This document shows positions 26,102 through 53,438 of a DNA stretch of 64,000 nucleotides, in pieces. Made by a program: the position numbers and the translations under genes. How positions within the stretch are numbered: the first letter of the stretch is position 1; each line of letters starts with the position of its first letter. This stretch comes from Kaistia geumhonensis (GTDB lineage Bacteria > Pseudomonadota > Alphaproteobacteria > Rhizobiales > Kaistiaceae): NCBI RefSeq assembly GCF_030815145.1, contig NZ_JAUSWJ010000001.1:1612001-1676000 (forward strand), given 5' to 3'. Below the pieces are notes generated by a model that did no database searches, was not told where the DNA came from, and was given only the letters and a program-made list of their open reading frames with translations.

Positions 26102-27338
26102 CGCCCGGCCGCGTGCCGACCTTGGGAACGAAGGCGTCGTAGGTGCCGACCATGAACCAGACCAGCGCGGCGGTTTTGATCGAATAGGGCGAGTCCGAGA
26201 TCAGCAAGAGCAGGCAGAGATAGGTCGCTACCAGCACCTTGAGCCGCCAGGCATCCGGATTGTCCTCGCGCGCGAAGATGAACAGCGTCCAGAAGCCGAC
26301 CGCGCCAATAATGCCGATCTCGCTCAGCGTCATCGCATAGCCCGAGTCCGACAGGAACGGCTTGTCCGGCGAGATGCCGAAGGCGGCGTGGACATCGAGC
26401 GAGGTCAGAAGGCGCGCCGTCCAGAGCAGCCGGCCTGAGAGGTCGTTCTGCCAGTTCACCTGCGCACTCGTGAAGCCATAGATGGCCAGCGCCAGCATGA
26501 TCGCCATCGGCAGCACATACCAGACGAGGCGCGGCGGGCGGATCGGCGAAAGGTGGATCGCCGTCGCGGCGATGCAGACATAAAGGCCGAACCGCGCATC
26601 GGCCAGGATGATCGGCATGGCGGCCAGAGCGAAGAGGAGCTTCCGCCAGCGCATGTCCTTGCGCACCAGCGCCCAGACATAGAGGATCGCCCCGAAATTG
26701 CCGGCCGAGACCGGCTCGAGGAACACCGACGACACGCGGTGCTGGCCGAGGAAGGGAAGGATCGTCCGCGCGTCCGGACGCAGCCCGCTGGCAAAGAGCC
26801 CTGACTCCCCGGTGACGTCGCTCGCCGCCACCGTTCCGCGTGCCACATAATATGCAATTATGTTGAAATACTTGATATAAATGTCGAGAAAGAAGTACTC
26901 GAACAAGCCGAAACCGAGCACGATGAAGCCGGAGATCAGGGCTGCGCGATCGGCGAGCCGGATGTCGGCATAGCGGCGGCCGAGCGCATAGAAGGTGATG
27001 GGGATCAGGAAGTCGCGCACCGACTTCAGATCGATCGCCGGCCGCATCGCCATGAGCAGCAGCATGTAGCTCATGAAGATGCCGAGGATCAGCCACAGCG
27101 AGACGCCGCGATTGACCGCCATCACGAAGGCGGCGCTGACGAGCAGCATTTCCGATCCCATGACGAGCGTGTCGGAGATGCGGAAAGCCACCGTATTCAC
27201 GAGGCAGAGCAAGAGGTTGAAGGTGAGCGCCCCGACGAGGATCGCCGTGATCACCGGCTCGTGCACCCGCTCGCGGAGCGCATCGGCATCGAAGCGGCCA
27301 TAGGCGGGATCGACGCGGCCGGTGGCGAAGGAGCGCAT
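26079..27338 (-). CDS. O-antigen polymerase/ligase-like membrane protein
   Basis: A 419-aa polytopic protein with at least ten hydrophobic segments, for example residues 33-52, 60-75 and 80-95. A periplasmic-type loop (RTILPFLGQHRVSSVFLEPV) with Arg and Glu lies mid-protein, as in Wzy/WaaL-type polysaccharide polymerases and ligases. It starts 2 bp after the Wzc-like gene, so they form an operon. The polymerase role is the best guess; no diagnostic catalytic motif can be claimed. Confidence 0.75.
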   Translation of the reverse strand: MRSFATGRVDPAYGRFDADALRERVHEPVITAILVGALTFNLLLCLVNTVAFRISDTLVMGSEMLLVSAAFVMAVNRGVSLWLILGIFMSYMLLLMAMRPAIDLKSVRDFLIPITFYALGRRYADIRLADRAALISGFIVLGFGLFEYFFLDIYIKYFNIIAYYVARGTVAASDVTGESGLFASGLRPDARTILPFLGQHRVSSVFLEPVSAGNFGAILYVWALVRKDMRWRKLLFALAAMPIILADARFGLYVCIAATAIHLSPIRPPRLVWYVLPMAIMLALAIYGFTSAQVNWQNDLSGRLLWTARLLTSLDVHAAFGISPDKPFLSDSGYAMTLSEIGIIGAVGFWTLFIFAREDNPDAWRLKVLVATYLCLLLLISDSPYSIKTAALVWFMVGTYDAFVPKVGTRPGVSVPRRG

Positions 27339-27340: not shown

Positions 27341-29362
27341 TCAGCGGTCGACGACGCCGACGACGCCGATCGCAACCGAGGCCAGCGGGCCGAGCGAGGC
27401 GATGAGATCGCGCACATCCTCGCTGCTGCTCACCCCTGTGGTCGCGACCACGATCACCGCGTCGACATAGCCGAAACTGGCGGCAAGCGTCCGCGTATCG
27501 CGCGAGGAACCGCCGTCGATCAGGATGAATTCCTGGCCGTCGCGGTCGGTCCGGTGGCGGCGAAGCTCGGCCAGCGCCGTGCCCTCGCCGGCAAAACGCG
27601 TTTCATGAGAGCGGGTTAGCATCGAGAGCGCCGACCGTTCGACGCGCAGCATGGTCGACATGTCGTCGGCCGAGCAGAGCAGCGTCTCCTCGCCGAGATC
27701 GGCGAGCGCTCCCGCCAATCCCCGCGCGACGCGCGGCCCGTTTGCGACCGGCCCCGCCTCGATGATGAGGATCGTCGCCGGCAGCTGGTCCGTCAGATGG
27801 ATCGCAAGTGCCTGTGCCGCCGGAAGAAGTGCCTCCCTGTCCGCGCCGTCCGGATCGGCCGGATCGACCACGGCCTGCCCCTTGCGCTTGAACCAGCGGT
27901 GGCGGCGCGAGGGCAGCAGCCCGACGAGTTCGGTGCCGAGACTGCCGCTGATACCGCGCAGCTTCGAGACGGGGTCCGAGGCGAAGAAATCGATGGCGAA
28001 GGCGACCCCGACACCGACGATGAGGCCGAACAGCGTTCCGGCCGCGAGCACGATCGACTTCGGCGGCGCCGCGGCCTTGATCGGCGGCACGGCCGGCGAA
28101 ATGACGCGGGAATTGCTGGTCTGGATCTGCTGCTGGAGGTCCAGTTCCTTGGTGCGGTTCAGGACGGCGTTGTAGACGCTCTGGATGGCGTCGGCGTCGC
28201 CCTGCAGTTCACGGGCGCGGATTTCTGCAGTGTTGCTCGAGGCTTGCGTCTGCGTCAGCGCCAGTTCCTGCGCCTTCAGGGCAGCAAGATTTTCTTTGGC
28301 GCGGGCATAGTCGGCCTCGATCGACTGCTTGATGCGCGACACCTCGGCATCGATCAGCCGAGCCAGCGCATCGCGCTCGGAATCGGCGCGCTGGAGCGCG
28401 GGATGGTTGGGACCGAGCGTCCGCGCCAGCTCGGCCTGGCGCTGGATGACGAGGCCGTATTGCGTCCTGAGCGCCGTGATGGTCGGCGAACTCACCGCTT
28501 CGGGAATGCCGCCGGCCTCGACGACTGCGAGATCGAGGCCGCGCACCTGGTTTCGCCGCGCTTCGAGCTGCGCAACCTCGGCACTCGCAGCGGTGAGGCG
28601 GCTGGTCAGATCCTGCAGGCGCTGGTTCACGACGAGACCGCCCTGGCCGGTCGCCACGAGCCCGTTTTCGGCGCGGAACGCCTCTACGCGATGCTGCGCA
28701 GCCTCGAACTGGCTGCGCAGCGACGCTGCCTGCGTCAACAGTGTGTCATTGGCCTGCCGGGCCGCGGTCAGCCGCGCTTCGCGGCTCTGCTCCAGATAGA
28801 CCACCGATATCGTATTGGCGATCTCGGCCGCCCTGTCAGGATCGTCATGCGTGACCGTCACCTGGAAGACCAGCGACGGATCGACCCGGTGCACCACGAC
28901 GCGCGCGCGCAGCATGTCGAGAACATGCACGAAGCGCGGGCTCACGGTCGCCGCGCGATCCTCGGGCCAACTGGCCATGGTGCCGGCGAAGAAGGGGTCA
29001 TGCTCGAGATCGAGCCTCCGGATGACCTCGGAAAGGACATTGGTGGAGGCGATGATCAGCGGCTGCGTATCGACATTGGCGAAATCCATCGAGGCCGAGC
29101 TGTCGGTCGGCAGGATGTCGCGCCCCACGACCTGAAGGCCTTGCGGATCGACGAGGATCTCGACCGTCGAGCGATAGACCGGGGTCTGACGGTGAATGTA
29201 GGCGGCCGCGAGCACGAGGAAGAGCAGCCCGAAGCCGAGCACGACGGGGTAGCGGCGCAGCACGACCGCGACCAGCTCCATCACGTCGATGGAGGCCAAG
29301 GGCCGACGCACCGCCGGCGCTGCCTCCTGGAGCCGGACATCGCTCCGCGCGAGCATTTCCAT
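27341..29362 (-). CDS. Polysaccharide chain-length/transport protein, Wzc/GumC-like, lacking a P-loop
   Basis: About 673 aa. A Wzz domain with a membrane helix near residues 41-58 is followed by a long Ala/Gln/Glu-rich coiled coil (about 170-420), a second helix near 455-475 (IVLAAGTLFGLIVGVGVAFA) and a C-terminal BY-kinase-like domain. That domain has no Walker A: the expected GxxxxGKS/T place reads AGPVANGPRVARG with no Lys, and it ends without a Tyr cluster. It probably regulates chain length as a structural co-polymerase. The ATG at 29362 is used; a TTG at 29371 and an ATG at 29356 are alternatives. Confidence 0.86.
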   Translation of the reverse strand: MEMLARSDVRLQEAAPAVRRPLASIDVMELVAVVLRRYPVVLGFGLLFLVLAAAYIHRQTPVYRSTVEILVDPQGLQVVGRDILPTDSSASMDFANVDTQPLIIASTNVLSEVIRRLDLEHDPFFAGTMASWPEDRAATVSPRFVHVLDMLRARVVVHRVDPSLVFQVTVTHDDPDRAAEIANTISVVYLEQSREARLTAARQANDTLLTQAASLRSQFEAAQHRVEAFRAENGLVATGQGGLVVNQRLQDLTSRLTAASAEVAQLEARRNQVRGLDLAVVEAGGIPEAVSSPTITALRTQYGLVIQRQAELARTLGPNHPALQRADSERDALARLIDAEVSRIKQSIEADYARAKENLAALKAQELALTQTQASSNTAEIRARELQGDADAIQSVYNAVLNRTKELDLQQQIQTSNSRVISPAVPPIKAAAPPKSIVLAAGTLFGLIVGVGVAFAIDFFASDPVSKLRGISGSLGTELVGLLPSRRHRWFKRKGQAVVDPADPDGADREALLPAAQALAIHLTDQLPATILIIEAGPVANGPRVARGLAGALADLGEETLLCSADDMSTMLRVERSALSMLTRSHETRFAGEGTALAELRRHRTDRDGQEFILIDGGSSRDTRTLAASFGYVDAVIVVATTGVSSSEDVRDLIASLGPLASVAIGVVGVVDR

Positions 29363-29638: not shown

Positions 29639-30472
29639 ATGTCCTACGACGGTCCAGATCGGCGTTGGGTGCCCCGTTTTCTCCGCGTCGGCGGAGTGCA
29701 CGTGCCCTATGCCTCCCGCGAAAAAGTGCTTCAGACGATCGACAGGTCGTTCCACGACCGCAGCCAGATCCGGATCGCGTTCTGTAACGCGAATACCATG
29801 GTCTCGGCGCTGCGTTCGCCGGCCTATGTCGAGACGCTGTCGCGCTTTCTCGTCCTCAATGACGGCGTCGGCCTCGACATCTGCTCGTCGCTCTTCATGG
29901 GCCACGGCTTCGAGGACAATCTGAACGGCACCGATCTCGTGCCGGACATCCTTGCCGCCGCCTCGAAGCCAGTCTCGATCTACCTGCTCGGCGCGAAGCC
30001 CGAGGTCGTCGCCGAGGCAGCGCGGCAGCTTGGCGAGCGCTTTCCGCGCCACCGCGTTGCCGGCTTCCATCACGGCTACCTGCGTCCCGCCGACGAGGCG
30101 GGGGTGATCGCCGAGATCAACGCCTCCGGAGCCGACCTGCTGCTCGTCGCGATGGGCAATCCGCTGCAGGAAATCTTCATCGCCCGCAACGCCGCCGCGC
30201 TGAAAGTGCCGGTGCTGGTCGGCGTCGGCGCCCTGTTCGATTTCATCAGCGGCACGGTGCCCCGCGCACCCGGCTGGATGCGTGCGGCGCGGCTCGAATG
30301 GCTGTTCCGCCTGATGCAGGAGCCGAAGCGGCTCGGCTGGCGGTACACCGGCGGGCTCGCGATCTTCCTGGCGCAGATCCTGCGCCTCCGCGTCGCCCGT
30401 CTTGCCGTGAAGCCGGCCGACCGGGCGCGTGAGATCGAGGCGCTGCCGAAGCGCCTCAGACCCGAAATCTGA
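29639..30472 (+). CDS. WecG/TagA/CpsF family glycosyltransferase (GT26)
   Basis: A 277-aa transferase that adds a sugar, often N-acetylmannosaminuronic acid or glucose, to a lipid-linked precursor. Family motifs visible are FCNANTMVSAL (about residues 48-58), LNDGVGLDI (about 73-81), LNGTDLVPDI (about 95-104) and GNPLQEIFIA (about 173-182). It is the first of a co-directional series running to 43333. Confidence 0.91.
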   Translation: MSYDGPDRRWVPRFLRVGGVHVPYASREKVLQTIDRSFHDRSQIRIAFCNANTMVSALRSPAYVETLSRFLVLNDGVGLDICSSLFMGHGFEDNLNGTDLVPDILAAASKPVSIYLLGAKPEVVAEAARQLGERFPRHRVAGFHHGYLRPADEAGVIAEINASGADLLLVAMGNPLQEIFIARNAAALKVPVLVGVGALFDFISGTVPRAPGWMRAARLEWLFRLMQEPKRLGWRYTGGLAIFLAQILRLRVARLAVKPADRAREIEALPKRLRPEI

Positions 30473-30496: not shown

Positions 30497-31720
30497 ATGC
30501 GGATCCTGATGGCAGCGGCCGCCTTTCCGCCCTTCATGGACGGCGGCGGACCGGTCTCGGCCATGCTGGTAGCCAAATTGCTCACCGGTGCCGGCCACGA
30601 ATTGCGCGTCCTCAATGTCGCCGACGAGGCGAAGGACGAGGTCTTCGACGGCATTCCCGTCCGCCGACTGTCGACGCTCAATCTCTACTGGAACTACCGC
30701 GTGCCGCGGCCGGCCTGGAAGAAGGCGGCCTGGCATGCGCTGGAGAACTTCAATCCGCGCGCCTATGCCGCCATGCGGCGCGAGATCCGGGATTTTTCGC
30801 CCGATCTGGTGGTGACCGACAGCATCGAGAACGTCAATGTCGCCACCTGGGCCGCGGCGCGCGGGGCCGGCATCCCTGTCTGTCACATCCTGCGCAGCAC
30901 GTTCCTTCTGTGCTGGAAGGGCAGCATGATGAAGGGCGATCGGAACTGCGCCGGGGCCTGCACCTCCTGCAAGGCGACATCGATCGGCAAGAAGGCGATG
31001 AGCCGCTTCGTCGACGGCGTCGTCGGGGAGACCGACTTCATCATCGCGCGGCACACCGACGCCGGCTATTTTCCGCATGCCGAACGGCGGCGGATCCCCG
31101 GCGTGGTGCCAAGGTTGATGGCGAGCGCGCCGCGGTCGGCGGCCGTCGGACGGCCGCTCAATGTGGGCTTCATCGGCGTCCACACGCCGATGAAGGGGCC
31201 GCATGTGCTGGCCGAGGCTGCCCGCGCCCTCGCTGGCCGCGCCGATCTCCGCTTTCTCGTCGCCGGCAGCGGCCAGGGCGACTATGCCGCCTCGCTCGGG
31301 GCCGCGTTCCCGGCTGCGACCACCCGCTTTCTCGGATGGACCGATCCGAACGACTTCTTCCCGCAGATCGATGTGCTGGTCGTCCCTTCGCTCTTCCAGG
31401 AGCCGTTCGGACGCGTGATCGTCGAGGCCTTCGCCCATGGCGTGCCCGTCATCGGCGCGCGCTCGGGCGGCATCGGAGAGACGATCGAGGACGGCGCCAA
31501 CGGCCTTTCGGTTCCGCCCGGCGATGCGTCGGCGCTCGCCGCAGCCATCGCGCGGCTGGCAGATGATCGCGAAGTGGTCGCCCGCTTCTCCGCGGGAGCG
31601 CTTTCGTCGGCGCGCCGTTATCTGCCGCCCGTCCTCGCCGCCTCCTATGGCGAATTGTTCGACCGCCTCGTCGGCAGGCGCGGCATCCCCGCCCTCGCCA
31701 CCCAGGGACTCTCCCGATGA
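30497..31720 (+). CDS. Glycosyltransferase family 4
   Basis: A 407-aa GT-B fold enzyme. The N-terminal domain begins MRILMAAAAFPPFMDGGGPV; the C-terminal domain has the nucleotide-sugar E-x7-E pattern in the region FQEPFGRVIVEAFAHGVPVI (about residues 299-318). A Cys-rich insert, NCAGACTSC (about 152-160), could bind metal or stabilise the fold. AAGGGGG precedes the ATG and the stop overlaps the flippase start. Confidence 0.91.
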   Translation: MRILMAAAAFPPFMDGGGPVSAMLVAKLLTGAGHELRVLNVADEAKDEVFDGIPVRRLSTLNLYWNYRVPRPAWKKAAWHALENFNPRAYAAMRREIRDFSPDLVVTDSIENVNVATWAAARGAGIPVCHILRSTFLLCWKGSMMKGDRNCAGACTSCKATSIGKKAMSRFVDGVVGETDFIIARHTDAGYFPHAERRRIPGVVPRLMASAPRSAAVGRPLNVGFIGVHTPMKGPHVLAEAARALAGRADLRFLVAGSGQGDYAASLGAAFPAATTRFLGWTDPNDFFPQIDVLVVPSLFQEPFGRVIVEAFAHGVPVIGARSGGIGETIEDGANGLSVPPGDASALAAAIARLADDREVVARFSAGALSSARRYLPPVLAASYGELFDRLVGRRGIPALATQGLSR

Positions 31721-33141
31721 GCCTTCGCCGGATCATTGCGGATCTGCGCGGACGGCCGGGCGCGGGCCGCTTCGCCTCGGCCTTCACCTCCAGGCTCGGC
31801 AGCGCGGTTCTCTCCTTTGTCGTGCTGCTGGCGGCGAGCCATGCCCTGCCGACCACCGAATACGGCCTCTATGTCTTCCTCTTCTCGCTCGGCAGCGCCC
31901 TTGGGCTCGTCTTCGTGCTGGGGCAGCAGATCCTCGTCGTGAAGCACTACCGCTCCGGTGTCGGCCTCGATCATCACGGCAACAACGCGCTGCTCCGCGT
32001 CAATGCCCGCTGGCTGCTGCTCGGGACCGGACTGCTCATCGCGGGCGCCGCTGCGAGCTTCCTGATCCGCGACCGCCTGCCCTCGCCCTATGACCAGCTT
32101 CATGCGGCGCTGATCTTCGCCGCGATCTTCGCGCTCAGCGAATATCTCCAGAACTATTTCCGCATCCATGGCCGCATCAACCTGTCGCTGACGCCGCGCG
32201 AGATCATCTGGCGCATCGCCTCGGCGCTGGCGCTCGGCGGACTGGCCGCGACCGGGCTTCTCCTCGGAGGTGCCGCAGCCTTCTGGGCGGTGACGGTCCT
32301 GCTCGGCGCGGTGACGCTCTACCAGCTCCTCCATTTCGTGCGCGACGAGGGACTCGACTGGCTCGGCAATTCCGGGCGCACCGATGCCGCGACCCGGCGC
32401 CAGTGGCGCAAGGAGAGCTGGTATTTCATCGCCAACAACTGCCTCAACTCGGCTTCCGCCTATCTGGAGACCATCGTTATCGGCGCGGCTTTGGGGCTCG
32501 ACCAGGCGGCGTTCTATTTCGTGGCGCTCCGGATCGCGATGTTCCTGACGCTCCCGGTCGCCGCCATCGACACGGTCGGCATCCCGATGATCGCCGCGCG
32601 CTTCCAGGCCAGCGACGTGCCGGGCGCGCAGCGGCTGGTTGGGCGCCTGTCGGCGGCGAGCTTCATCATCTCGCTGATGGGCGCGCTGTGCCTCGCGGTG
32701 ATCGGCGATCATGTGCTGGTGCTCTTCAACGCCGATTTCGCGCAGCATCATGACGTGCTGGTCGTGCTCTGCCTCTCGGCCGTATCGCTCGCCTTCTTCG
32801 GTCCGGGCTCGTGGCTGCTCATGATCGGCGGCGGCGAGCGCTATTTCCTCATCGGCCGCTCCATCCTCTTCGTGTTCTACCTCGCCCTGCTCTACGGCCT
32901 CGCACGAGTCTACGGGCTGATGGGCATCGCCGTCGCCGGCCTCTCGATGAATGTCGCCTCGAACCTGATCGCGACGGTCTGGGTCATGCGGCGCTGGACC
33001 ATCGACAACATGGCGACCGCGGTCCTCAGGCCGTTTCTCCTGTTCGACGCGCGCCGGATCCGGCGCAGCTCCGCCACCGATCATCGTCCGGCGGCAGCCA
33101 GCCGCATCGCACTCGAAGGAAACGGGGAGGCCTCGGCATGA
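31717..33141 (+). CDS. Lipopolysaccharide/oligosaccharide flippase (Wzx/MATE-like)
   Basis: A 474-aa inner-membrane protein with 12-14 hydrophobic helices, beginning with SRLGSAVLSFVVLLAASHAL (about residues 26-45), as in the polysaccharide_synt/Wzx family. It would flip the lipid-linked repeat unit to the periplasm. It overlaps its neighbours by 4 nt at both ends. The basic C-terminal tail (about 440-474) is cytoplasmic. Confidence 0.88.
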   Translation: MSLRRIIADLRGRPGAGRFASAFTSRLGSAVLSFVVLLAASHALPTTEYGLYVFLFSLGSALGLVFVLGQQILVVKHYRSGVGLDHHGNNALLRVNARWLLLGTGLLIAGAAASFLIRDRLPSPYDQLHAALIFAAIFALSEYLQNYFRIHGRINLSLTPREIIWRIASALALGGLAATGLLLGGAAAFWAVTVLLGAVTLYQLLHFVRDEGLDWLGNSGRTDAATRRQWRKESWYFIANNCLNSASAYLETIVIGAALGLDQAAFYFVALRIAMFLTLPVAAIDTVGIPMIAARFQASDVPGAQRLVGRLSAASFIISLMGALCLAVIGDHVLVLFNADFAQHHDVLVVLCLSAVSLAFFGPGSWLLMIGGGERYFLIGRSILFVFYLALLYGLARVYGLMGIAVAGLSMNVASNLIATVWVMRRWTIDNMATAVLRPFLLFDARRIRRSSATDHRPAAASRIALEGNGEASA

Positions 33142-35003
33142 CGATCCGTATCGACATCGACGACCGCAGCAGCGGCGCGGCCGGCTCGTTCCTTCGTCCG
33201 CTCGCGCTGGCGCGGGTCGATGCGGGTCTCGATCCCGGCAGGACCGCCCCGACGCTCGCCCGCACGGCAAAGTTCGGGGAGCCGGTCTCGCTCGGCAATT
33301 TCGGCGGGCTTTATCATCCGGGCCGCGCGGCGCTCGCCGTCCTCATGTTGTCGCCGATCGGCTTCGAAGAGATGTGCTTGCGCTCGACTTGGCGCAGCCT
33401 CGCGACTCTGTTCGCCGAAGCGGGACTGCCCTGCCTCCGCTTCGACTATCCCGGCACCGGCGACGCGCTCGACCCCGACCAGTCTCCCGAAGGGATCGAG
33501 GACTGGAAGGACGCCGTGCGTCGCGCCGCCGGCTGGCTCCGCGAAACGGCTGGTGCCGACGAGATCGTGCTGGTCGGCCAGGGCTTCGGCGCCACGCTCG
33601 CGCTCACCATGGCGCCCGAGATCGAGGGCGTTCGCGCCGTCGTCGCGATGGCGGCGGTCGAGAACGGTCGCCACTATCTGCGCGAGCTCGCCGCGTGGTC
33701 GCGCATCGTGACGGATTCGATCGGGATTGGCCCCGATCCGAGCGACGAGAACGGCCTCGGCGTCGCCGGGCTCTCGCTGCCGGCTGGCCGTGCCGCGGCC
33801 ATCAAGGCGATGCGCCTCGATGCGCTCGCCGCGTGCCCCGCCGCCGACGTGCTCGTCGTCGGCCGCGCCGGGACGGATCGCGACGACATCATCGCCGACA
33901 GGCTCGCCGCGCTCGGCGCCCGGGTCGCGCGACAGCCTTTCGAGGGCTACGAGACGCTGCTCACCGATCCGACCCAGGCGAGGCCGCCGATGCCGACGCT
34001 GGAACGGATCGCGACCTATGTCGCCGCGCTCGCCAATGCCCGTCCCGCGGCCGCCCTGCCTGCACCTGAGCCGCAACCGCTCGTCGGCCCGCATTTCGAA
34101 GAAATCGCCGGCCGCTTCGGACCGGGCCGCCGGCTCATGGGCGTCTTCTGCCGTCCGGCCGGCATCCCCGACGCGCCGGTGCTGGTCTTCACCAATGCCG
34201 GGCACGACTATCACATCGGCTGGGCGCGGGTGACCGTCATGCTGGCGCGCGAACTGGCGAAGGCGGGCTATGCGAGCCTCCGCTTCGACATGGACGGCAT
34301 CGGCGACAGCCCCGCCCATCCGGGGAGCCCGGGCGAGGTGCTCTATTCCGATGCCCACATCGCCGACACGATCGCGGCGGTGGATCACGCCGGCCAGCTC
34401 TCGGCAGGTCGGGTAATCCTGGTCGGCCGATGCAGCGGCGGCTATGCCGCTCTGCAAGCGGCGGGCCGGCGCGAGCGTGTCGCCGATCTCGTGATCGTCA
34501 ACACGCAGCGCTTCATCTGGGACAAGGACGAGGATGTCGCGACGGCAGTCCGCTACGGCCATCGCAGCGTCGGAAATTTCGGCGCGACCCTCCTGAAGCG
34601 CGACACGCTGCTGCGCCTCGTGCGCGGGCAGCTCAATATCGGCCAGGCAGGCCGCTACATCCTCCGCTCGATCGCGACCAAGGCGAGCCGCCGGCTCGCG
34701 CCTTTCATGGGCGGCCTCTCCAAGCATGCCCGCATGCATCGTGACGTGCATCGCCGGTTCCGCGCGCTCGAAGATCGGGGAACGCGGGTCTCGATGCTCT
34801 TCTCCGCCGACGATGCCGGGCTCAAGGAGTTCCGCGCCTATTTCGGCGAGCGCGGCCAGAGGCTCGGAAACTATCGTCTCGTGACGATGGAACTCATCGA
34901 AGAAGCCGACCACAATTTTACGCATCTGGGCGCGCGCGAGCGGCTGCTTTCCGCGCTCCGGGCCGCGATCACGCCAGCAAAAAGCCGGGAGAGCGCATCG
35001 TGA
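33138..35003 (+). CDS. Tandem alpha/beta hydrolase with altered nucleophiles
   Basis: A 621-aa protein made of two alpha/beta hydrolase domains (about 50-300 and 320-615). In domain 1 the nucleophile elbow reads G-Q-G-F-G at 147-151, with Gly149 in place of Ser, so it is probably inactive. In domain 2 the elbow is G-R-C-S-G at 430-434, with Cys432 as the likely nucleophile and a C-terminal DHNFTH for the His. Cys-elbow hydrolases of this kind are recalled from exosortase-associated clusters. It might act on an acyl or aminoacyl thioester; this is inferred from the carrier protein further downstream. The ATG overlaps the flippase stop. Confidence 0.83.
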   Translation: MTIRIDIDDRSSGAAGSFLRPLALARVDAGLDPGRTAPTLARTAKFGEPVSLGNFGGLYHPGRAALAVLMLSPIGFEEMCLRSTWRSLATLFAEAGLPCLRFDYPGTGDALDPDQSPEGIEDWKDAVRRAAGWLRETAGADEIVLVGQGFGATLALTMAPEIEGVRAVVAMAAVENGRHYLRELAAWSRIVTDSIGIGPDPSDENGLGVAGLSLPAGRAAAIKAMRLDALAACPAADVLVVGRAGTDRDDIIADRLAALGARVARQPFEGYETLLTDPTQARPPMPTLERIATYVAALANARPAAALPAPEPQPLVGPHFEEIAGRFGPGRRLMGVFCRPAGIPDAPVLVFTNAGHDYHIGWARVTVMLARELAKAGYASLRFDMDGIGDSPAHPGSPGEVLYSDAHIADTIAAVDHAGQLSAGRVILVGRCSGGYAALQAAGRRERVADLVIVNTQRFIWDKDEDVATAVRYGHRSVGNFGATLLKRDTLLRLVRGQLNIGQAGRYILRSIATKASRRLAPFMGGLSKHARMHRDVHRRFRALEDRGTRVSMLFSADDAGLKEFRAYFGERGQRLGNYRLVTMELIEEADHNFTHLGARERLLSALRAAITPAKSRESAS

Positions 35004-36052
35004 AACATGGGCTCCTGCGCAGCGGCGGCGCCGTCCTCGCGCTTCTGGCGATGCTCGGCAGCGCCGCCGCTGCGCCGTGCCTCCGCGGCTTCAACCTCGC
35101 CGGCGCAGAATTCGGCAAGCTGCCGGGAGCGCTCGACAAGGACTATACCTATCCTGCGCCGGCAACGATCGACACCTTCGTCGCGACCGGTGCATCGGTC
35201 ATCCGCCTCCCCGTTCGCTGGGAGCGCCTGCAGCCCGCGCTCGGCGAGCCGCTTTCGGAGACCGAGCTCGCGGCGCTCGACGCCACGGTCGATGCCGTCA
35301 CGGCGGCCGGGCTGACGGTGGTGATCGACGTTCACAATTATGGCTACTACGCGGAAAAGCAGATCGGCTCGGCCGACGTCCCGATCGAGTCCTTCGCCCA
35401 GTTCTGGGCCCGGCTCGCATCACATTATGCGGGCCGAGATGGCGTCGTCTTCTCGCTGATGAACGAGCCCTACGACATCGCGGCGCCCGACTGGCTCAAG
35501 ATCACCAATGCCGCCATCGCGGCGATCCGGGTCATCGGGGCCGACAATCTGATCCTCGTCTCCGGCACGGCCTATGCCGGTGCGCATAGCTGGTCGAAGT
35601 CACTCGCAACCGGCAACAATGCCGCCGTCATGGCCGGCGTCGTCGATCCGGCCAACCGCTATGCCTACGACTTCCACCAATATCTCGACGCAGACTTTTC
35701 CGGCCGCAACGCCGAATGCTCGGGAGCGGAGGCTGCGATCGAGGGCATCCGGTCGGTAACCGGCTGGCTCAAGGCGCATGGCAAGCACGGCTTCCTCGGC
35801 GAGTTCGCGGCGTCGAAGGACGCTGCGTGCGTCGCGAAGATGAAGGAACTCGTCGCGGCGGTGGACAACGCGCCCGACCAATGGATCGGCTGGACCTACT
35901 GGGCCGGCGGCGCCTGGTGGCCGGCCGACTACATCTTCACCGCCCAGCCCGATGGTGACGGCGACCGGCCGCAGGTCGCGGCGCTGAAGCCCGTCCTCGG
36001 CCACGACAATGGATCCTCCTGCACCGTTCCGGCGAAGGGGCCGACGCCATGA
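35000..36052 (+). CDS. Secreted glycoside hydrolase family 5 (cellulase-like)
   Basis: A 350-aa protein with a signal peptide (core AVLALLAMLGSAAAA, cleavage about residue 25). GH5 catalytic residues are seen as Glu156 in SLMNEPYD (acid/base) and Glu268 in GFLGEFAA (nucleophile), with conserved HNYG near 112 and YDFHQY near 223. The start is GTG at 35000, overlapping the previous stop. A periplasmic endo-glucanase that trims or releases the polysaccharide is the likely role. Confidence 0.9.
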   Translation: MKHGLLRSGGAVLALLAMLGSAAAAPCLRGFNLAGAEFGKLPGALDKDYTYPAPATIDTFVATGASVIRLPVRWERLQPALGEPLSETELAALDATVDAVTAAGLTVVIDVHNYGYYAEKQIGSADVPIESFAQFWARLASHYAGRDGVVFSLMNEPYDIAAPDWLKITNAAIAAIRVIGADNLILVSGTAYAGAHSWSKSLATGNNAAVMAGVVDPANRYAYDFHQYLDADFSGRNAECSGAEAAIEGIRSVTGWLKAHGKHGFLGEFAASKDAACVAKMKELVAAVDNAPDQWIGWTYWAGGAWWPADYIFTAQPDGDGDRPQVAALKPVLGHDNGSSCTVPAKGPTP

Positions 36053-37263
36053 CGACCTTGACCGCCGACCGGCAGTTGCGCGTCCTCCATGTGGTGCGCC
36101 AGTTCCATCCGAACTGTGGCGGGCTCGAGGACTTCGTCGCCAATCTCGCCCGCACGCAGATCGAAGCCGGCATCGATGCTCGCGTGCTGACGCTCGACCG
36201 GCAGTTCACGCGGCCGGACGTCACGCTGCCGGAGCGGGACGCCCTCGGCCCGATCCCGATCCGTCGCATCCCGTTCCGAGGCTCGAAACGATATCCGCTC
36301 GCGCCCGGATTCCTCGCAGCGCTCGGCGATGCCGATCTCGTCCATGTGCACGCGATCGATTTCTTCTTTGACGCGCTGGCCGCGACCCGGCTCATGCACG
36401 GCAAGCCGCTGGTCGCGACGACACATGGCGGCTTCTTCCATACCGGCGCGCATTCGACGCTGAAGAAGCTCTGGTTTTCAGGGCCGACACGGCTCTCCGC
36501 CCTCGCCTATCGCGCCATCGTCGCCTGCAGCGAGCAGGACGAGGCGACCTTCGCCACGATCGCCGGCGAGAAGGTCGTGCTGATCGAGAACGGCGTCGAT
36601 ATCGGCAAGCTCGCGGGCCGGGCGCGGCCCACGAAGTCGAAGCGGCTCGTCAGCATCGGCCGCCTCGCCGCCAACAAGCGGCCGGACCACCTGCTCGCGG
36701 CGTTTGCGAGGCTCGTGGCGGCGGATCGCGAGTGGCATCTCGCGATCGTCGGCGCGGAATCCGACTGGTCGGCCGAGCAGCTGCGCGCGGAAATCGAGCG
36801 GCACGGGCTCGGAACCCATGTCGATCTCCATATCGGGCTCGACGATGCGGGGCTCGCCCGCGTGGTCGCTGGCTCGTCGCTGTTCGTGTCGGCCTCGGAA
36901 TATGAGGGCTTCGGCATCGCACTGATCGAAGCGGCGAGCGCGGGGCTCGGCATCGTCGTCAATGGCAACACCGCCTTCCGTGAACTCGCGGCGCGGCACG
37001 AAGGCATCCGTCTCACCGACTTCGCCAATCCCGACGCGGCGGCCGCGGCGATCCGCGCCGCCTATGACGCCCTGCCCGAGATGCGCTGCGTGCCGGACTG
37101 GGTGGGGGCCTATGCCTGGCCCGCCGTCGCGGCCCGCTATGGCGAAGTCTATCGCCGCGCCCTCGGTCTGGAGGCCAACAGGGCCCAGTTTCAGCAACCG
37201 GTTTCAGCATCCGTTAAGTACAGATCCGAGCTTCCGGAAGCCGTTAAAATGCAAGGCAAATAG
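36049..37263 (+). CDS. Glycosyltransferase family 4
   Basis: A 404-aa GT-B enzyme. The N-terminal donor/acceptor cleft shows VVRQFHPNCGGLEDFV near residue 16, and the C-terminal domain has VSIGRLAANKRPDHLL (about 200-215) and SASEYEGFGIALIEAASAGL (about 282-301) with the E-x7-E motif. It overlaps the GH5 gene by 4 nt. It would add one sugar of the repeat unit. A 92-bp AT-richer gap follows before the carrier protein gene. Confidence 0.91.
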   Translation: MTTLTADRQLRVLHVVRQFHPNCGGLEDFVANLARTQIEAGIDARVLTLDRQFTRPDVTLPERDALGPIPIRRIPFRGSKRYPLAPGFLAALGDADLVHVHAIDFFFDALAATRLMHGKPLVATTHGGFFHTGAHSTLKKLWFSGPTRLSALAYRAIVACSEQDEATFATIAGEKVVLIENGVDIGKLAGRARPTKSKRLVSIGRLAANKRPDHLLAAFARLVAADREWHLAIVGAESDWSAEQLRAEIERHGLGTHVDLHIGLDDAGLARVVAGSSLFVSASEYEGFGIALIEAASAGLGIVVNGNTAFRELAARHEGIRLTDFANPDAAAAAIRAAYDALPEMRCVPDWVGAYAWPAVAARYGEVYRRALGLEANRAQFQQPVSASVKYRSELPEAVKMQGK

Positions 37264-37355: not shown

Positions 37356-37601
37356 ATGCGGGATCGTATTCGCAAGCTCATCGCCGATCGCAAGGTCATC
37401 GCTGTCGACGTGAACAGCCTCAGCGACAGCGCCGATCTCTACGAGGCGGGACTGAGCTCCTTCGCCTCCATACAGTTCATGCTCGCCCTCGAAGACGCCT
37501 TCGACGTCGAGTTTCCGGAGCGGATGCTGACGCGCAAGACCTTCGCCTCGATCGAGGCGATCGACCGCTCCATCTCCGAACTCCTGACCGAAAGGGTCTG
37601 A
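37356..37601 (+). CDS. Acyl carrier protein homologue of the aminoacyl-carrier type
   Basis: An 81-aa four-helix carrier protein. The phosphopantetheine site is AGLSSFASIQ, with Ser35 the likely attachment residue; Ser34 stands where most ACPs have Asp. The following segment FMLALEDAFDVEFPERMLTR is the recognition helix. This SS variant and the phrase RKTFASIEAI are what I recall for carriers charged by amino acid:[carrier protein] ligases. The start at 37356 follows AGGGAG; the frame is open from 37335. The matching ligase is two genes downstream. Confidence 0.88.
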   Translation: MRDRIRKLIADRKVIAVDVNSLSDSADLYEAGLSSFASIQFMLALEDAFDVEFPERMLTRKTFASIEAIDRSISELLTERV

Positions 37602-37606
37602 CCGTC

Positions 37607-38794
37607 ATGGCCCTGCCCTCCCGCACCATCGAAGAACTCCGCGCTCCCGCGGAGCGCATGCGCGTCGTGGCGGAGATCGCCGCGCGCCATTCCGCCGAGG
37701 TGGACCGCGAGGGCCGCTTCCCGCGGGAAGCCATCGATGCGCTCAAGGCCGAGCGGCTCATGGCCGTGATGATCCCGAAGCGCTTCGGCGGCGAGGGGCT
37801 CAGTCTTCTGGAGGTCGCCGAACTCTGCACCATCCTCGGCCAGGCCTGCGGCTCGACCGCGATGGTCTATGCCATGCACCAGATCAAGGCTTCGAGCCTC
37901 GTCTCGCATGGCGGCGAGAGCCAATGGCATGCCGGCTTCATGCGGGAGATGGTCGCCGAGCAGCATCTGCTCGCCTCGGCGACCACCGAGGGCGGCATCG
38001 GCGGTGACCTGCGCAACTCGATCTGCGCGGTCGACGTGAAGGATGGCCGCTTCACGCTGGAGAAGGACGCGACCGTCATCTCCTACGGCCTCTATGCCGA
38101 CGCGATCCTCGTCACCTGCCGCCGCGCGCCGGAGGCGCAGAGCTCCGATCAGTCGATGGTCGTCGTGAGGCGGGGCGACTACACCCTTGCCAAGACGACG
38201 GGCTGGGACACGCTCGGCATGCGCGGCACCTGCTCCGAAGGCTTCCGCCTCGTCTCGTCCGGCGACGCGGCGCAGATCTTCCCGCAGCCATTCTCCGAGA
38301 TCGCAGCGCAGTCGATGCTCTCGACCTCGCATATCCTCTGGGGCGCCGTCTGGTTCGGCATTGCGGCCGATGCCGTCGCCCGGGCACAGGCCTATGTCCG
38401 CGCCGCGGCCCGCAAGCAGCCGGGCAGCGTTCCGCCCGGCGCGCTCCGTCTCGCCGAGGTCGTCGCGATGCTGCAGGACATGAAGGCGAGCGTCGTCGCC
38501 GGCGTCGTCCGCTACGAGGCGGCGCTCGACCGTCCGGACGAACTCTCCTCGATAGGCTTCGCGGTCGAAATGAACAATCTCAAGGTCACGACCTCGCAGC
38601 GCGGCGCGCAGATCGTGACGCATGCGATGCTGATCACCGGCCTCTCCGGCTACAAGAACGACACGCCGTTCAGCGTCGGCCGGCACCTCCGCGACATCAC
38701 CTCCGCCGCCATCATGATCTCCAACGATCGCATCCTCTCCAACACCTCGAACCTGCTGCTGGTCAGCCGCTTCGACACGAGCCTGGTGAACTGA
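37607..38794 (+). CDS. Acyl-CoA dehydrogenase family flavoprotein
   Basis: A 395-aa FAD enzyme. The N-terminal helical domain contains [20 protein letters not shown] and [11 protein letters not shown]; the middle beta domain has [16 protein letters not shown] (about 125-140) and a C-terminal helical domain ends [20 protein letters not shown] (about 357-376). The usual catalytic Glu near the C-terminus is not obvious. It starts 5 bp after the carrier gene. Related flavoproteins oxidise prolyl-carrier proteins in pyrrole pathways, so a carrier-bound aminoacyl group is a plausible substrate here. Confidence 0.88.
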
Positions 38795-38795
38795 C

Positions 38796-39731
38796 ATGGA
38801 CGCCCTGCCGCAGACCGCGCCCGCCAAGAGCGGCGCCAAGCAGTTTCTCGACCAGCTTTTCGGTGCCGGCGTGCTTACCGAAACCGGCGTGGACGGCCTC
38901 TATGGTCGCTCCGGCGATTTCGAGGAGGTGATCGAAAGATTCCTCGCGTTGGTGACGCGCACGGCCGGCGCCGATGTCGTCGAGCGCATCCATTTCCCGC
39001 CCGGCATGCCGCGACCGATGCTGGAAAAGTCCGGCTATCTGAAGAGCTTCCCGCAGCTCGCCGGCTGCGTGCATTCCTTCATGGGCGGCGAAGCCGACCA
39101 CGCGCAGCTCCTGCAGATGGTCGCCAATGGCGAGGACTGGACGGAGATGCAGAAGGCGACCGATGTCGTGCTGACGCCCGCCGCCTGCTACCCGCTCTAT
39201 CCGACCGTCGCCAAGCGAGGCCCGCTACCGGCCGATGGCGTGCTGTTCGACCTCCAGTCCTACTGCTTCCGCCACGAGCCCTCGCAGGATCCGGCGCGCA
39301 TGCAGCTGTTCCGCATGCGCGAATTCGTCCGCATCGGCTCTCCCGAGCAGGTGCGCGATTTCCGCGAGACCTGGCTGGAGCGCGGCCCGGAGATGATCCG
39401 GTCGCTCGGCCTTCCCTGCGACATCGACTTGGCGAACGACCCGTTCTTCGGCCGCGCCGGCAAGATGCTCGCCAACAACCAGCGCGACCAGGGACTGAAG
39501 TTCGAGCTTCTCATTCCCGTCGCCAACGAGAAGCCGACGGCCTGCCTCTCGTTCAACTATCACCAGGACCATTTCGGCACGCTTTGGGGCATCGCCCAGG
39601 CGAATGGCGAAGCGGCGCATTCGGCCTGCGTCGGCTTCGGCCTCGAGCGCGTCGCGCTCGCGCTGTTCCGCCATCACGGCATGAAGGTCGCCAACTGGCC
39701 GAAGCCGGTCCGCGACGTTCTCTGGGGCTGA
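38796..39731 (+). CDS. Amino acid:[carrier protein] ligase (class II aaRS-like)
   Basis: A 311-aa homologue of the catalytic core of archaeal-type seryl-tRNA synthetase, without a tRNA-binding domain. Motif 2 reads FRHEPSQD then RMREFVRIG (about residues 158-181) and motif 3 [12 protein letters not shown] (280-291). Cys131, Glu176 and Cys278 match, to within one residue, the three zinc ligands I recall from the Bradyrhizobium enzyme. These ligases activate glycine or alanine with ATP and load it on a small carrier protein rather than tRNA. The gene starts 1 bp after the flavoprotein stop. Which amino acid is used cannot be read. Confidence 0.92.
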
Positions 39732-39747
39732 GCTGAAGGAAGCCGCC

Positions 39748-40746
39748 ATGCCATCGCTCGCCAGTCTCGATCCGACCGCGCACCGCCCGCATGCCCTGCA
39801 TGACGGCGCGCGCGTCTGGCCCGAAACCAACTGCTATGTCGATCTCTTCATCGAGCTCGTCGGCGCGCTCGGGCTCGAGGCCGAGGCGATGTTCGGCTTC
39901 ACGGTCACGCAGGACTTCGAGGACGACCAGTTCACCTTCTTCAAGGTGCCGGTCGACGATCTCGAAGCGCTCTACGGGCTGCGCGTTCAGGAACTGGCGA
40001 TCTTCGACGATCTCGCCGCGCATGTCGCGCGGCAGGTCGCCCGCGAGCGCGTCGTGCTCGTCGAGATGGACGGCTTCCATCTCCCCGACACCGGCGGCGT
40101 CTCTTACCGCGTCCAGCACACCAAGACGACGGTCGGCATCACGTCGATCGATCCTGCCTCGCGGCGGATGACCTACTTCCATAATGCGGGCTTCTTCCAG
40201 CTGTCCGGCGAAGACTTCGACGGTCTCTTTGCCGAGGCGGGACGAGGCCGGAGGGCGGACGCGCTGCTGCCCTATACGGAGTTCGTCAAGCTGCCGACGG
40301 CGCCGGTCAGGGTCGATACGCTCGCCATCGCCAAGCGGCTGATGGTGCGCCATCTCGCCCGCAGGCCGGAGGCCAACCCCATCGCGGCCTTCGGCTTTTC
40401 CCTCGCGGCGCATCTCGCCGATCTCGCTGGCCGGCCGCAGGATTATTTCCACGTCTACGCCTTCAACACGCTGCGCCAGCTCGGCGCGAATTTCGAGCTG
40501 CTGGCGAGCCATCTCGCCTGGTTCTCGGCAAGGGGCGAGCCCGGGCTCTCCCGTGCCGAGGCGGCCGCGCTGGAGATCGCGACGGGCGCAAAGACCATGC
40601 AGTTCAAGCTCGCGCGCGCCATGGCTCGTGGACGCTTCGACGGCCTGGACGCCTTCATCGCGCCGATGGCGGCATCATGGGACACGGTGATGGCGGAACT
40701 GGATGCCCGGTTCATGGCTGGCCGGGTGGAGCGCCGCGCCGCCTAG
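39748..40746 (+). CDS. DUF1839 family protein
   Basis: A 332-aa protein recalled as DUF1839 (PF08893), a family of unknown function. The start contains ETNCYVDLFIELV (Cys29) and later YRVQHTKTTVGITSIDPASR (His124, Asp135). This Cys...His...Asp order, with H followed by a strand and DP, resembles papain/C39-like folds, including BtrH, which moves an aminoacyl group off a carrier. A transferase or thioesterase role is therefore suggested, as an inference only. It lies 16 bp after the ligase gene. The rest is helical and Ala-rich. Confidence 0.8.
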   Translation: MPSLASLDPTAHRPHALHDGARVWPETNCYVDLFIELVGALGLEAEAMFGFTVTQDFEDDQFTFFKVPVDDLEALYGLRVQELAIFDDLAAHVARQVARERVVLVEMDGFHLPDTGGVSYRVQHTKTTVGITSIDPASRRMTYFHNAGFFQLSGEDFDGLFAEAGRGRRADALLPYTEFVKLPTAPVRVDTLAIAKRLMVRHLARRPEANPIAAFGFSLAAHLADLAGRPQDYFHVYAFNTLRQLGANFELLASHLAWFSARGEPGLSRAEAAALEIATGAKTMQFKLARAMARGRFDGLDAFIAPMAASWDTVMAELDARFMAGRVERRAA

Positions 40747-40888: not shown

Positions 40889-43333
40889 ATGCATCCGCTT
40901 TCAGACAGCGCCGCCCGCGCAACCGATCTCGATGAGGGCTGGACGCTCGCGCTGACCGCGCCGGGGGCGTTCCCGGAGCCGCCGGTTCATGCCGAATGGC
41001 TGCCGGCGATCGTGCCGGGCACGGTCGCGTCGTCTCTCGCCGCAATCGGTCGCTGGTCGCTGGATCGACCCGAGCCGCTGCATGGCAAGGACGCCTGGTA
41101 TCGGTGCCGCCTTCCGGGCGAAGGACCGTGCCGGCTGGTCTTCGAGGGACTGGCGACCATCGCCGACGTGTTTCTCGACGGGGCGCTCGTCGCCTCCTCC
41201 CAGTCGATGTTCGTGCCGCTGGAGATCGCCGTGATGCGGCGGGCGGACAGCGAACTCGCGATCTGCTTCCGTTCGCTCGCGTTCGAACTCGATCGCCGCA
41301 AGGGCAAGCGCGCCCGCTGGCGGCCGACCATGATCGACGATCCGCGCCTCCGCCTCGTGCGAACCACCTTTCTCGGCCATATGCCCGGCTGGTGCCCGCC
41401 GGTCGATGTCGTCGGTCCTTTCCGCAGCATCACGCTGATCGAGGATGGCGCGCCGCCGCTGCGCGATCTTTCCAGTTCGGTGGCACTCACCGGCGGCGTC
41501 GGCAGCGTGACCGTTTCCTTCGCCGATCCCGGTGGCGACGAGCCGATCATGCTTCGGGTCGGCAGTCACGAGGCCCCCTTGTGCCGGCAGGATGGCCGCG
41601 TCAGCGGCACGCTCACGATCCAGAACCCGGCGCTCTGGTGGCCGCGCGGGTATGGCGCGCAGCCACTCTTCTCGATCTCGATTGCCATCGGCGGACGGAC
41701 CGTCACCCTCGGGCGCACGGGTTTTCGCAGCATCGCCGTCGATCGCGGCGCGGAAGGCAGAGGCTTCGCGCTCGTCGTCAACGGCGTGCCGATCTTCTGC
41801 CGCGGCGCCGTCTGGACGCCCGCCGACATCATCTCGCTCGCGGGGAGGCGCAAGGCTGTGGAGCCGCTTCTCGGCCTCGCCGCCGAAGCCGGCTTCACGA
41901 TGCTGCGCGTCGGCGGGACGATGGTCTATGAGGACCGCGCTTTCCATGAACTCTGCGACGAGCTCGGCATCCTCGTCTGGCAGGACTTCATGTTCGCCAA
42001 TTGCGACTATCCGGCCGACGACGGCTTCGCCGCCGATATCGCGGCGGAGGCGGAGGCTGTGCTCGGTCGCCTTTCGTTGTCGCCATCTCTGGCCGTCCTC
42101 TGCGGCGGCAGCGAGGTGGCTCAGCAGGCGGCGATGATGGGGCTGCCGCCCGAAAGCTGGTCGAGCCGGATCTTCGAGAGCGTGCTGCCGGCGACGGCCT
42201 CACGGCTCCGGCCCGATATCCCGTTCGTGCCCTCCTCGCCCTTCGGCGGGGAACTCCCCTTCGTCGCCGACACTGGCGTGACGCATTACTATGGCGTCGG
42301 CGCCTATCGGCGGCCGCTCGAGGATGCGCGGCGCGCGAATGTCCGCTTCGCCTCGGAATGCCTCGCCTTCGCCAATGTGCCGGATGCGGCGACGCTGGCC
42401 GAGGCCCTGCCGGTCGCGTCCGTTCACCATCCGCGCTGGAAGGCCGCCGTGCCGCGCGATCTCGGCGCAGCCTGGGATTTCGAGGATGTGCGGGAGCACT
42501 ATACCGAAGTGCTGTACGGCGTCGATCCGATGCGGCTGAGGACCGAGGATCCGGCGCGACATCTCGGTCTTGCCCGCGCGACCAGTGCCGATGTCGCCGC
42601 AGCAACCTTTGCCGAATGGCGGCGGCCAGGCTCTCCGACCGCAGGCGGCCTCGTCTGGTTCTTCCGCGATCTCGTGCCGGGCGCCGGCTGGGGCGTCATC
42701 GATGCGCTCGACCGGCCGAAGGCGATCTTCCATGCGCTGAAGCGGGCCTTCGCGCCGCTCGCTCTCACGATCACCGACGAGGGCGTGAACGGTCTCCACC
42801 TTCATGTTGCGAATGATGGCCCCGAGCCGGTCGAGGCCGCTCTTTCGCTCGCCTGTCTCAGGGACGGGCGGCTGCCGGTGGCGCAGGGCAGTCGCGATCT
42901 GATGATCCCCGCGCGGAGCGCCGTGAGCGTGACCGCCACGGCCCTGCTCGGCGCCTTTTTCGACACGACCTATGCCTATCGCTTCGGCCCGGCGGGCCAC
43001 GATGTCAGCCTCGCCGAACTGCGGTCGGCGGATGGGGCGCTGCTCGCGGAAGCCACGCACTGGCTGCCCGGTCGCCGCGCCGAGCGCCAATCGCTCGGGC
43101 TTCGCGCCGTCCTGGAGCGTGACGCCGAAGGCTGGTTCCTGAGGCTCTCCGCCGAGCGCATGGCAGCACATGTGTTGATCGAGGATCCGCATTATCGCAG
43201 CAGCGACAATGGCTTCGACCTCGCGCCCGGCCGCGAGCGCATTGTCCGCCTCATTCCGTTCCATGATGGCCGCGCGCCCGAAGGCGAAGTTCGGTCGATC
43301 AATGGCCGAGAGGTCGCGCGCTACGGCGCTTGA
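40889..43333 (+). CDS. Glycoside hydrolase family 2 protein (beta-mannosidase-like)
   Basis: An 814-aa enzyme with the GH2 order: a sugar-binding beta domain (about 1-170), an immunoglobulin-like domain, a TIM barrel (about 285-620) and C-terminal beta domains. The acid/base Glu is in VLCGGSEVAQQ near residue 405 and the nucleophile candidate in RFASECLAFANVP near 485. There is no signal peptide, so it is probably cytoplasmic. The ATG at 40889 has a poor ribosome site. It follows the aminoacyl-carrier genes after 142 bp and may recycle glycan intermediates. Confidence 0.86.
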   Translation: MHPLSDSAARATDLDEGWTLALTAPGAFPEPPVHAEWLPAIVPGTVASSLAAIGRWSLDRPEPLHGKDAWYRCRLPGEGPCRLVFEGLATIADVFLDGALVASSQSMFVPLEIAVMRRADSELAICFRSLAFELDRRKGKRARWRPTMIDDPRLRLVRTTFLGHMPGWCPPVDVVGPFRSITLIEDGAPPLRDLSSSVALTGGVGSVTVSFADPGGDEPIMLRVGSHEAPLCRQDGRVSGTLTIQNPALWWPRGYGAQPLFSISIAIGGRTVTLGRTGFRSIAVDRGAEGRGFALVVNGVPIFCRGAVWTPADIISLAGRRKAVEPLLGLAAEAGFTMLRVGGTMVYEDRAFHELCDELGILVWQDFMFANCDYPADDGFAADIAAEAEAVLGRLSLSPSLAVLCGGSEVAQQAAMMGLPPESWSSRIFESVLPATASRLRPDIPFVPSSPFGGELPFVADTGVTHYYGVGAYRRPLEDARRANVRFASECLAFANVPDAATLAEALPVASVHHPRWKAAVPRDLGAAWDFEDVREHYTEVLYGVDPMRLRTEDPARHLGLARATSADVAAATFAEWRRPGSPTAGGLVWFFRDLVPGAGWGVIDALDRPKAIFHALKRAFAPLALTITDEGVNGLHLHVANDGPEPVEAALSLACLRDGRLPVAQGSRDLMIPARSAVSVTATALLGAFFDTTYAYRFGPAGHDVSLAELRSADGALLAEATHWLPGRRAERQSLGLRAVLERDAEGWFLRLSAERMAAHVLIEDPHYRSSDNGFDLAPGRERIVRLIPFHDGRAPEGEVRSINGREVARYGA

Positions 43334-45961: not shown

Positions 45962-45966
45962 CGGCT

Positions 45967-48677: not shown

Positions 48678-48721
48678 GTCTCGCTTCTCCCCCTCGATGG
48701 CTTCTTGGTTCGCCTGTTCCG

Positions 48722-50929
<2,208 letters not shown>

Positions 50930-50951: not shown

Positions 50952-53438
<2,487 letters not shown>

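Follow-up and report, generated by a model that had tools for sequence, protein, structure and literature searches.

A conserved five-gene aminoacyl-carrier-protein module and its hydrolase partner, a candidate pathway for exopolysaccharide decoration in Kaistia geumhonensis and other bacteria

What are aminoacyl-tRNA synthetase (aaRS)-like ligases that charge carrier proteins for? Aminoacylation of a carrier protein by such ligases is established, and to our knowledge the question of their purpose has been without an answer since they were described in about 2010. An account from 2022 called their biological role unknown (PMC9437257). A locus of Kaistia geumhonensis raises this question in a specific setting, and we studied it in a window, by which we mean the whole stretch of 64,000 nucleotides analyzed (contig NZ_JAUSWJ010000001.1, positions 1,612,001 to 1,676,000 of the forward strand). 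The window holds genes for a carrier protein (CP), a flavoprotein of acyl-CoA dehydrogenase fold, a class II aaRS-like amino acid:[carrier protein] ligase and a DUF1839 protein, in the midst of genes for a surface polysaccharide. An earlier, sequence-only reading of the locus had proposed a tRNA-free aminoacyl decoration of a glycan. Our analyses left that central idea standing, changed and better bounded, and did not support its oxidation part as it had been stated. We give even chances to the interpretation that the module is a carrier-protein pathway decorating an exopolysaccharide (EPS).

Comparison of 99 module loci identified a larger conserved unit than the four genes described earlier; genes were called per locus with a codon model, in 80 named loci and additional regions, and then clustered. 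The order CP, flavoprotein, ligase, DUF1839 and a glycoside hydrolase of family GH2 was fixed in 92 of the 99 loci, with median spacings from CP to GH2 of -1, 4, 4 and 34 bp. Based on this order the module comprises five genes, not four; the four-gene unit is real, but the conserved one adds GH2 and also a tandem alpha/beta-hydrolase, referred to here as HYD2. The core order spans Hyphomicrobiales, Azospirillum, Burkholderiaceae-like genomes and one Myxococcaceae metagenome-assembled genome, and in Kaistia soli the gene order was the same and the ligase 89% identical. Six of the seven incomplete loci were on contigs ending close to the module. The seventh was the sole true exception (L044:9712-10930), having a CP and a ligase (71% identical) without flavoprotein, DUF1839 or GH2. 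The pairwise distances of ligase, DUF1839, flavoprotein, GH2 and HYD2 correlated across loci (r 0.54-0.80; 0 of 500 permutations reached any of these values), as expected of genes with a common history, a pattern that species ancestry alone would also produce.

HYD2 was found to follow DUF1839 across whole genomes. When presence was scored as a full-length protein in a profile search, HYD2 occurred in 9/9 DUF1839-positive and 0/72 DUF1839-negative relatives, and in 16/16 positive and 1/382 negative genomes of a phylum sample (Fisher P 4e-12 and 1e-27, respectively, uncorrected for kinship, the two samples having a few genomes in common). HYD2 tracks DUF1839 and not the ligase, because eight genomes carrying a second type of ligase, which is ~50% identical, had neither DUF1839 nor HYD2. 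HYD2 was a neighbor of the module in 67 of the 99 loci, and in the window it sits inside the EPS operon. Eight HYD2 loci distant from the module, all in DUF1839-positive genomes, were also read. Six of these (L125, L126 and L131-L134) had EPS genes (Wzc, GT26, GT4, flippases, GH5 or GH10, ManC) and two (L127 and L130) were without a clear EPS locus. The second half of HYD2 has a GxCxG nucleophile, Cys432, together with Asp559 and His592, the nucleophilic Cys being present in 68/68 proteins; the first half is without a nucleophile, with Gly or Arg at that place. A single genome of the phylum sample, G394, had HYD2 but no DUF1839. There HYD2 comes after an amino-acid adenylation domain (346 bits against a cut-off of 317) and a carrier of the module's carrier family, with Wzc close by, indicating that the type of ligase can change and the carrier and HYD2 stay. 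The apparent exchange of the ligase type is seen at L135:7513-11308, an operon of adenylation domain, same-family carrier and HYD2 that lacks DUF1839 and is close to Wzc.

The presence of the module in a run of glycan genes, pointed out earlier, was real, and the setting proved to be wider, with acyltransferase_3, probable Wzy, Wzc/EpsF and GT26 genes as well (Table 1). The Wzx/Wzy-type set of the window appears to be complete (probable Wzy, Wzc, GT26, two GT4, Wzx and an acyltransferase), and its probable Wzy is 60% identical to a Bosea gene lying between Wzc and the module. Each consecutive pair in the series GT4 (30497), Wzx, HYD2, GH5 and GT4 (36049) overlaps by 4 bp, and these overlaps suggest a single, translationally coupled operon. 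The association with glycan genes was not confined to this locus, and the refuting condition named in the earlier reading, a link to such genes here alone, did not hold. With GT4, Wzc, flippase, GT26, undecaprenyl-phosphate sugar transferase and ManC as EPS markers, at least one of these families was near the module in 54/99 loci and in 2/20 random windows from the same kind of genomes, and at least two in 38/99 and 0/20, respectively, a comparison somewhat biased toward the module as the marker clusters were defined on module loci.

The four tightly packed plus-strand genes (spacing 5, 1 and 16 bp) had been placed and named correctly, as judged by the open reading frames (ORFs) and by Pfam and NF profiles. 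The CP gene exists, but the start assigned to it, 37356, is the second in-frame ATG and would give 81 aa, the ORF opening at 37335. The phosphopantetheine site noted in CP is Ser35 of a GLSS motif, invariant in 97/97 carriers, and the ligase residues that had been placed in zinc-ligand positions, Cys131, Glu176 and Cys278, were kept in 99/99 ligases. Counts from promoter and terminator scans were at chance level.

The ligase matched NF005479 (amino acid--[ACP] ligase) with 497 bits, relative to a cut-off of 357, and aligned to Bradyrhizobium ligase 1 (PDB 4h2w/3mey) with E 6e-103. By analogy to its homologues, the window ligase would load a small amino acid, possibly Gly or Ala, on CP. It has its family, zinc ligands and an adjacent carrier protein in common with the ligases of Bradyrhizobium (Bll0957; PDB 3mey, 4h2w-y) and Agrobacterium, and it differs from the earlier accounts of those enzymes in being tied to DUF1839, GH2 and HYD2. 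In B. diazoefficiens, bll0957 and the acyl-CoA dehydrogenase gene bll0958 have consecutive locus numbers, and loss of PhaR function in a mutant raised the Bll0957 and Bll0958 transcripts together, 3.0-fold each (PMC10888616), a finding that speaks for joint expression only. Distant ligase relatives (~30% identity) were seen in L191-L195, some with a small carrier-like ORF; a link of these to a polysaccharide deacetylase occurred at one locus only (L195) and was not used. In 13 loci, from Rhizobium-related and other genomes (L066, L088, L094, L096, L098-L100, L102, L103, L105, L113, L115 and L117), genes for EF-P, an EpmA-like lysine ligase and a lysine 2,3-aminomutase-like protein were directly upstream of the module. 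The EpmA-like protein is another aaRS-like ligase next to that of the module; the recurrence may reflect shared synteny and nothing more.

The role proposed for DUF1839, to receive the carrier's aminoacyl group, gained support from its predicted structure. The DUF1839 protein matched PF08893 with 401 bits (cut-off 22.5). Its AlphaFold2 (AF2) model, built from 54 sequences (predicted local distance difference test score, pLDDT, 93.9), had as its best structural matches CcbD (Z 19.9), AziU2/U3 (18.3) and CtaG (16.8), the next rows being at 7.5, and these matches extended over 272-292 residues, nearly the full length. Like CcbD/LmbD (lincosamide), AziU2/U3 (azinomycin) and CtaG (closthioamide), DUF1839 combines this predicted fold with a Cys at a helix start and a carrier partner; the pathways of those enzymes make natural products and use adenylation domains, whereas the module is found in polysaccharide loci. 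The Cys in question, Cys29, is at the N-terminus of the first long helix (29-40) and was present in 96/98 proteins, and His124 and His145 were invariant (98/98). A C(T/S)H triad has been proposed for DUF1839, which a 2023 survey assigned to the papain-like superfamily, guessing a glycan role from context (PMC10318531). CcbD works by a ping-pong mechanism with a Cys-His-Glu triad: proline moves from the carrier onto the catalytic Cys, and an amino-sugar amine then receives it (PMC12945683). Searches of PDB sequences with DUF1839, by single sequence and by profile, found nothing relevant, CcbD, AziU and CtaG all being unmatched. As there was no detectable sequence similarity, we describe DUF1839 as a protein predicted to work like CcbD, CtaG and AziU, and do not class it as a member of their family. 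Cys29 was lost (Gln or Arg) in two Burkholderiaceae-like module copies (L111:7424-8380 and the DUF1839 of L123). In these genomes another DUF1839 gene, located with ManC, Wzc and HYD2, retains the Cys.

The GH2 protein bears the marks of GH2_14, an assignment based on diagnostic residues. Its acid/base Glu409 and nucleophile Glu490 were each present in 91/91 proteins, and Ser408, which replaces the usual Asn to give an SE motif, in 90/91. At the position of the mannosidase Trp, the window protein has Gly342 and the family Gly, Pro, Ala or Ser, never Trp, and by eye there was no obvious signal peptide. The CAZy GH2_14 enzymes BmGH2_14 and SdGH2_14 are similar in having SE for NE, a small residue for Trp and kinship to GH2 mannosidases (PMC12243196). 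According to the same paper, GH2_14 proteins are mostly without signal peptide and are proposed to accept substituted sugars, and the Ser of the SE motif is thought, in related glucosaminidases, to relieve a clash with the C2 amino group; the genome context given here is absent from that account. Directly 3' of the window GH2 is a gene for a BTP/PACE chlorhexidine-efflux-type transporter (43446-43889), which occupied this place only in Kaistia relatives.

The flavoprotein had been suggested to oxidize the loaded amino acid as in prolyl-carrier oxidation. As stated, this suggestion was unsupported: profile alignments to PDB structures and conservation counts placed an acid at the catalytic-base position of medium-chain acyl-CoA dehydrogenase (MCAD) or of isovaleryl-CoA dehydrogenase (IVD) in no module flavoprotein. 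The MCAD-type position, 371, is Ile in the window and Ile or Val in module members, and the IVD-type position, 241, is Ser in the window and Ser, Ala, Thr, Cys or Gly, mostly Ser or Ala, in module members. Since the usual Glu base is missing at both, ordinary alpha,beta-desaturation is doubtful, and for glycine it would be impossible. The AF2 model (pLDDT 87.8) had its best structural Z, 40, to acyl-CoA dehydrogenases, but the comparison did not separate dehydrogenases from monooxygenases, both having Z 37.6-40, and we therefore assign no reaction class to this protein. The structural matches included ColB1, which oxidizes carrier-bound cysteine according to the title of PDB 7xp7, so that a carrier-bound amino acid is a reasonable substrate. 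Oxidation at the amino-bearing carbon and oxygenation are both candidate reactions.

The second-type ligase bears on where the flavoprotein acts. In five of the six loci L185-L190 this ligase adjoins a flavoprotein without DUF1839, GH2 or HYD2, and a divergent carrier protein was readable near it in L185 and L187. The recurrence of this pair without DUF1839 and HYD2 argues for assigning the flavoprotein to the aminoacyl-carrier step, with a glycan side made up of DUF1839, GH2 and HYD2.

The computations show gene content and order, conservation, co-occurrence and similarity of fold. From these we infer a small amino acid, its oxidation, an amide on an amino sugar, an EPS destination and, as no signal peptide was apparent by eye, a cytosolic site; the module would aminoacylate the repeat unit of an EPS in the cytosol, with an amide to an amino sugar as the probable linkage. 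The ligase would activate the amino acid with ATP and load it on CP, as its homologues have been shown to do. The flavoprotein would act on the CP-bound aminoacyl group, most likely by oxidation at or near the amino-bearing carbon. DUF1839, judging by its fold and conserved residues, would accept the acyl group on Cys29 and join it in amide linkage to an amino-sugar amine, in the manner of CcbD. In the cytosol the GH2_14-like enzyme may trim or transfer a glycoside carrying the substituted sugar. HYD2 would be a Cys-nucleophile partner on the EPS side, in acyl transfer or release for the decorated repeat unit, which products of the Wzx/Wzy-type genes would export and polymerize.

Several points weigh against this EPS pathway. 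In 45/99 loci none of the listed EPS families was within ~10 kb, and the genome counts are not phylogenetically independent. DUF1839 has ~11% identity to CcbD, having the fold in common without a sequence signal. The two GH2_14 enzymes that have been tested were only slow on p-nitrophenyl (pNP)-beta-galactoside, with no natural substrate (PMC12243196). Finally, the related ligase-flavoprotein pair occurs without the glycan half of DUF1839, GH2 and HYD2, and the aminoacyl half therefore has at least one other use.

A rival reading is a module making a soluble aminoacyl amino-sugar metabolite, lincosamide- or butirosin-like, with EPS genes as neighbors through shared regulation or sugars. All structural relatives of DUF1839 work in small natural-product pathways, and the five genes stay together where the EPS neighbors vary. 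We nevertheless consider this explanation unlikely, as HYD2 tracks DUF1839 genome-wide and is mostly in EPS loci when unlinked from the module, and the recurring neighbor clusters included no conserved gene for export, resistance or tailoring. Still less probable, in our estimation, is an O-linked aminoacyl group, esterified to a lipid or to the hydroxyl of a sugar, or a final transfer performed by HYD2 and not DUF1839. CcbD is an amide synthase, as is CtaG, and this argues for an amide. The SE motif of GH2 likewise indicates a sugar with a C2-amino or other substitution (PMC12243196). In favor of an ester or of transfer by HYD2 are the GxCxG nucleophile of HYD2 (68/68), the occurrence of HYD2 with a carrier and an adenylation domain in the absence of DUF1839, and the precedents of Dlt and Alm (PMC3783018). 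That GH2 and HYD2 are a catabolic or recycling arm stripping an imported aminoacylated oligosaccharide, whose amino acid the ligase-carrier part re-uses, is very improbable: GH2 and GH5 are glycosidases, and the tested GH2_14 enzymes slowly hydrolyze pNP-beta-galactoside (PMC12243196), but the window is biosynthetic (GT4, GT26, Wzx, Wzc, probable Wzy), the ATP cost of amino acid activation by the ligase fits synthesis, and no transporter recurs among the neighbors.

The proposed EPS decoration pathway has counterparts among known systems. Its general logic is that of DltABCD (teichoic acid) and AlmEFG (lipid A), which decorate an envelope polymer with an amino acid by means of a ligase, a carrier and a transferase, no tRNA being involved. 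Dlt and Alm use an adenylation-domain ligase and membrane acyltransferases, whereas the module has an aaRS-like ligase, apparently soluble transferases and a glycosidase. An adenylation-domain ligase of the Dlt/Alm kind is not the module type, which has the class II aaRS fold, and one genome, G394, has such a domain; no membrane acyltransferase was present in the five-gene core or as HYD2, acyltransferase_3 occurring in some loci only. A second likeness is to the EPS loci of exosortase A (XrtA/PEP-CTERM) systems, which have an acyl carrier and hydrolases 1 and 2 with the same odd active sites. In two such loci, from genomes that carry XrtA, we found separate hydr2 and hydr1 genes resembling the HYD2 halves beside an acyl carrier and an AMP-ligase; these carriers and hydrolases were found by reading ORFs, a motif scan having returned nothing. 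The XrtA loci differ in their ligase (AMP-ligase TIGR03098) and in having separate hydrolases where HYD2 is fused, and the described XrtA set is without DUF1839 and GH2. HYD2 fell below the curated cut-offs of the hydrolase 1/2 pair (109.7 of 168 and 58.7 of 203 bits), and is thus related to these families and not a member. Of nine genomes with HYD2 or the module, eight (G000, G001, G049, G107, G181, G394, G396 and G400) had no match to XrtA and one, G067, had a sub-cut-off match. As a tentative extension, which we hold to be possible and on balance somewhat doubtful, there may be a class of EPS whose repeat units bear a flavoprotein-modified amino acid in amide linkage on an amino sugar. Their synthesis would be cytosolic, by an aaRS-derived ligase, CP, a CcbD-like amide synthase and GH2_14, the ligase being interchangeable with adenylation domains around a HYD2 core common to exosortase-A systems.

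Table 1. Genes of the module and of its polysaccharide setting in the window.
Feature	Coordinates	Strand	Basis
Acyltransferase_3 membrane protein	24923..26101	+	PF01757
Polytopic membrane protein, probably Wzy-type polymerase	26079..27338	-	Inferred; no Pfam match
Wzc/EpsF-type chain-length protein	27341..29362	-	PF02706, PF13807, TIGR01005-like
GT26 WecG/TagA/CpsF glycosyltransferase	29669..30472	+	PF03808
GT4 glycosyltransferase	30497..31720	+	Pfam
Wzx-type flippase	31717..33141	+	PF01943
HYD2, tandem alpha/beta-hydrolase, 621 aa	33138..35003	+	TIGR03100/TIGR03101-like
GH5 glycoside hydrolase, apparent signal sequence	35000..36052	+	PF00150; N-terminus by eye
GT4 glycosyltransferase, ends 71 bp 5' of CP	36049..37263	+	Pfam
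CP, carrier protein, 88 aa	37335..37601	+	PF00550; NF005480 102 bits
Acyl-CoA dehydrogenase fold flavoprotein, 395 aa	37607..38794	+	Three Acyl-CoA_dh Pfam domains
Class II aaRS-like amino acid:[carrier protein] ligase, 311 aa	38796..39731	+	NF005479, PDB alignment
DUF1839, 332 aa, predicted papain-like carrier-protein acyl/amide transferase	39748..40746	+	PF08893, AF2 model
GH2 glycoside hydrolase, 814 aa, GH2_14-like	40889..43333	+	PDB beta-mannosidase alignments; position after DUF1839

Elsewhere in the window, 43886-57282 holds glycogen genes: glgX, glgA, glgC, glgB and a phosphorylase gene are on the minus strand, and the plus strand has a second pair, of starch-synthase type and isoamylase type. 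The gene at 57326-58882, ~14 kb from the EPS operon, encodes a CSS-motif EAL-domain protein (cyclic-di-GMP turnover). A phosphonate C-P lyase cluster with PhnI, PhnJ and a phosphonate ABC transporter lies at 12998-24022.

Together with its phylogenetic profile, the six-gene unit provides aaRS-like carrier-protein ligases with a specific, testable place, in surface polysaccharide. It also suggests what DUF1839 may do, puts the orphan GH2_14 in a context and shares its logic with the carrier and hydrolase genes of exosortase-A systems. Many carriers of the module are plant- or soil-associated relatives of Rhizobium, Bradyrhizobium, Mesorhizobium and Agrobacterium, bacteria in which surface polysaccharide governs attachment and symbiosis.

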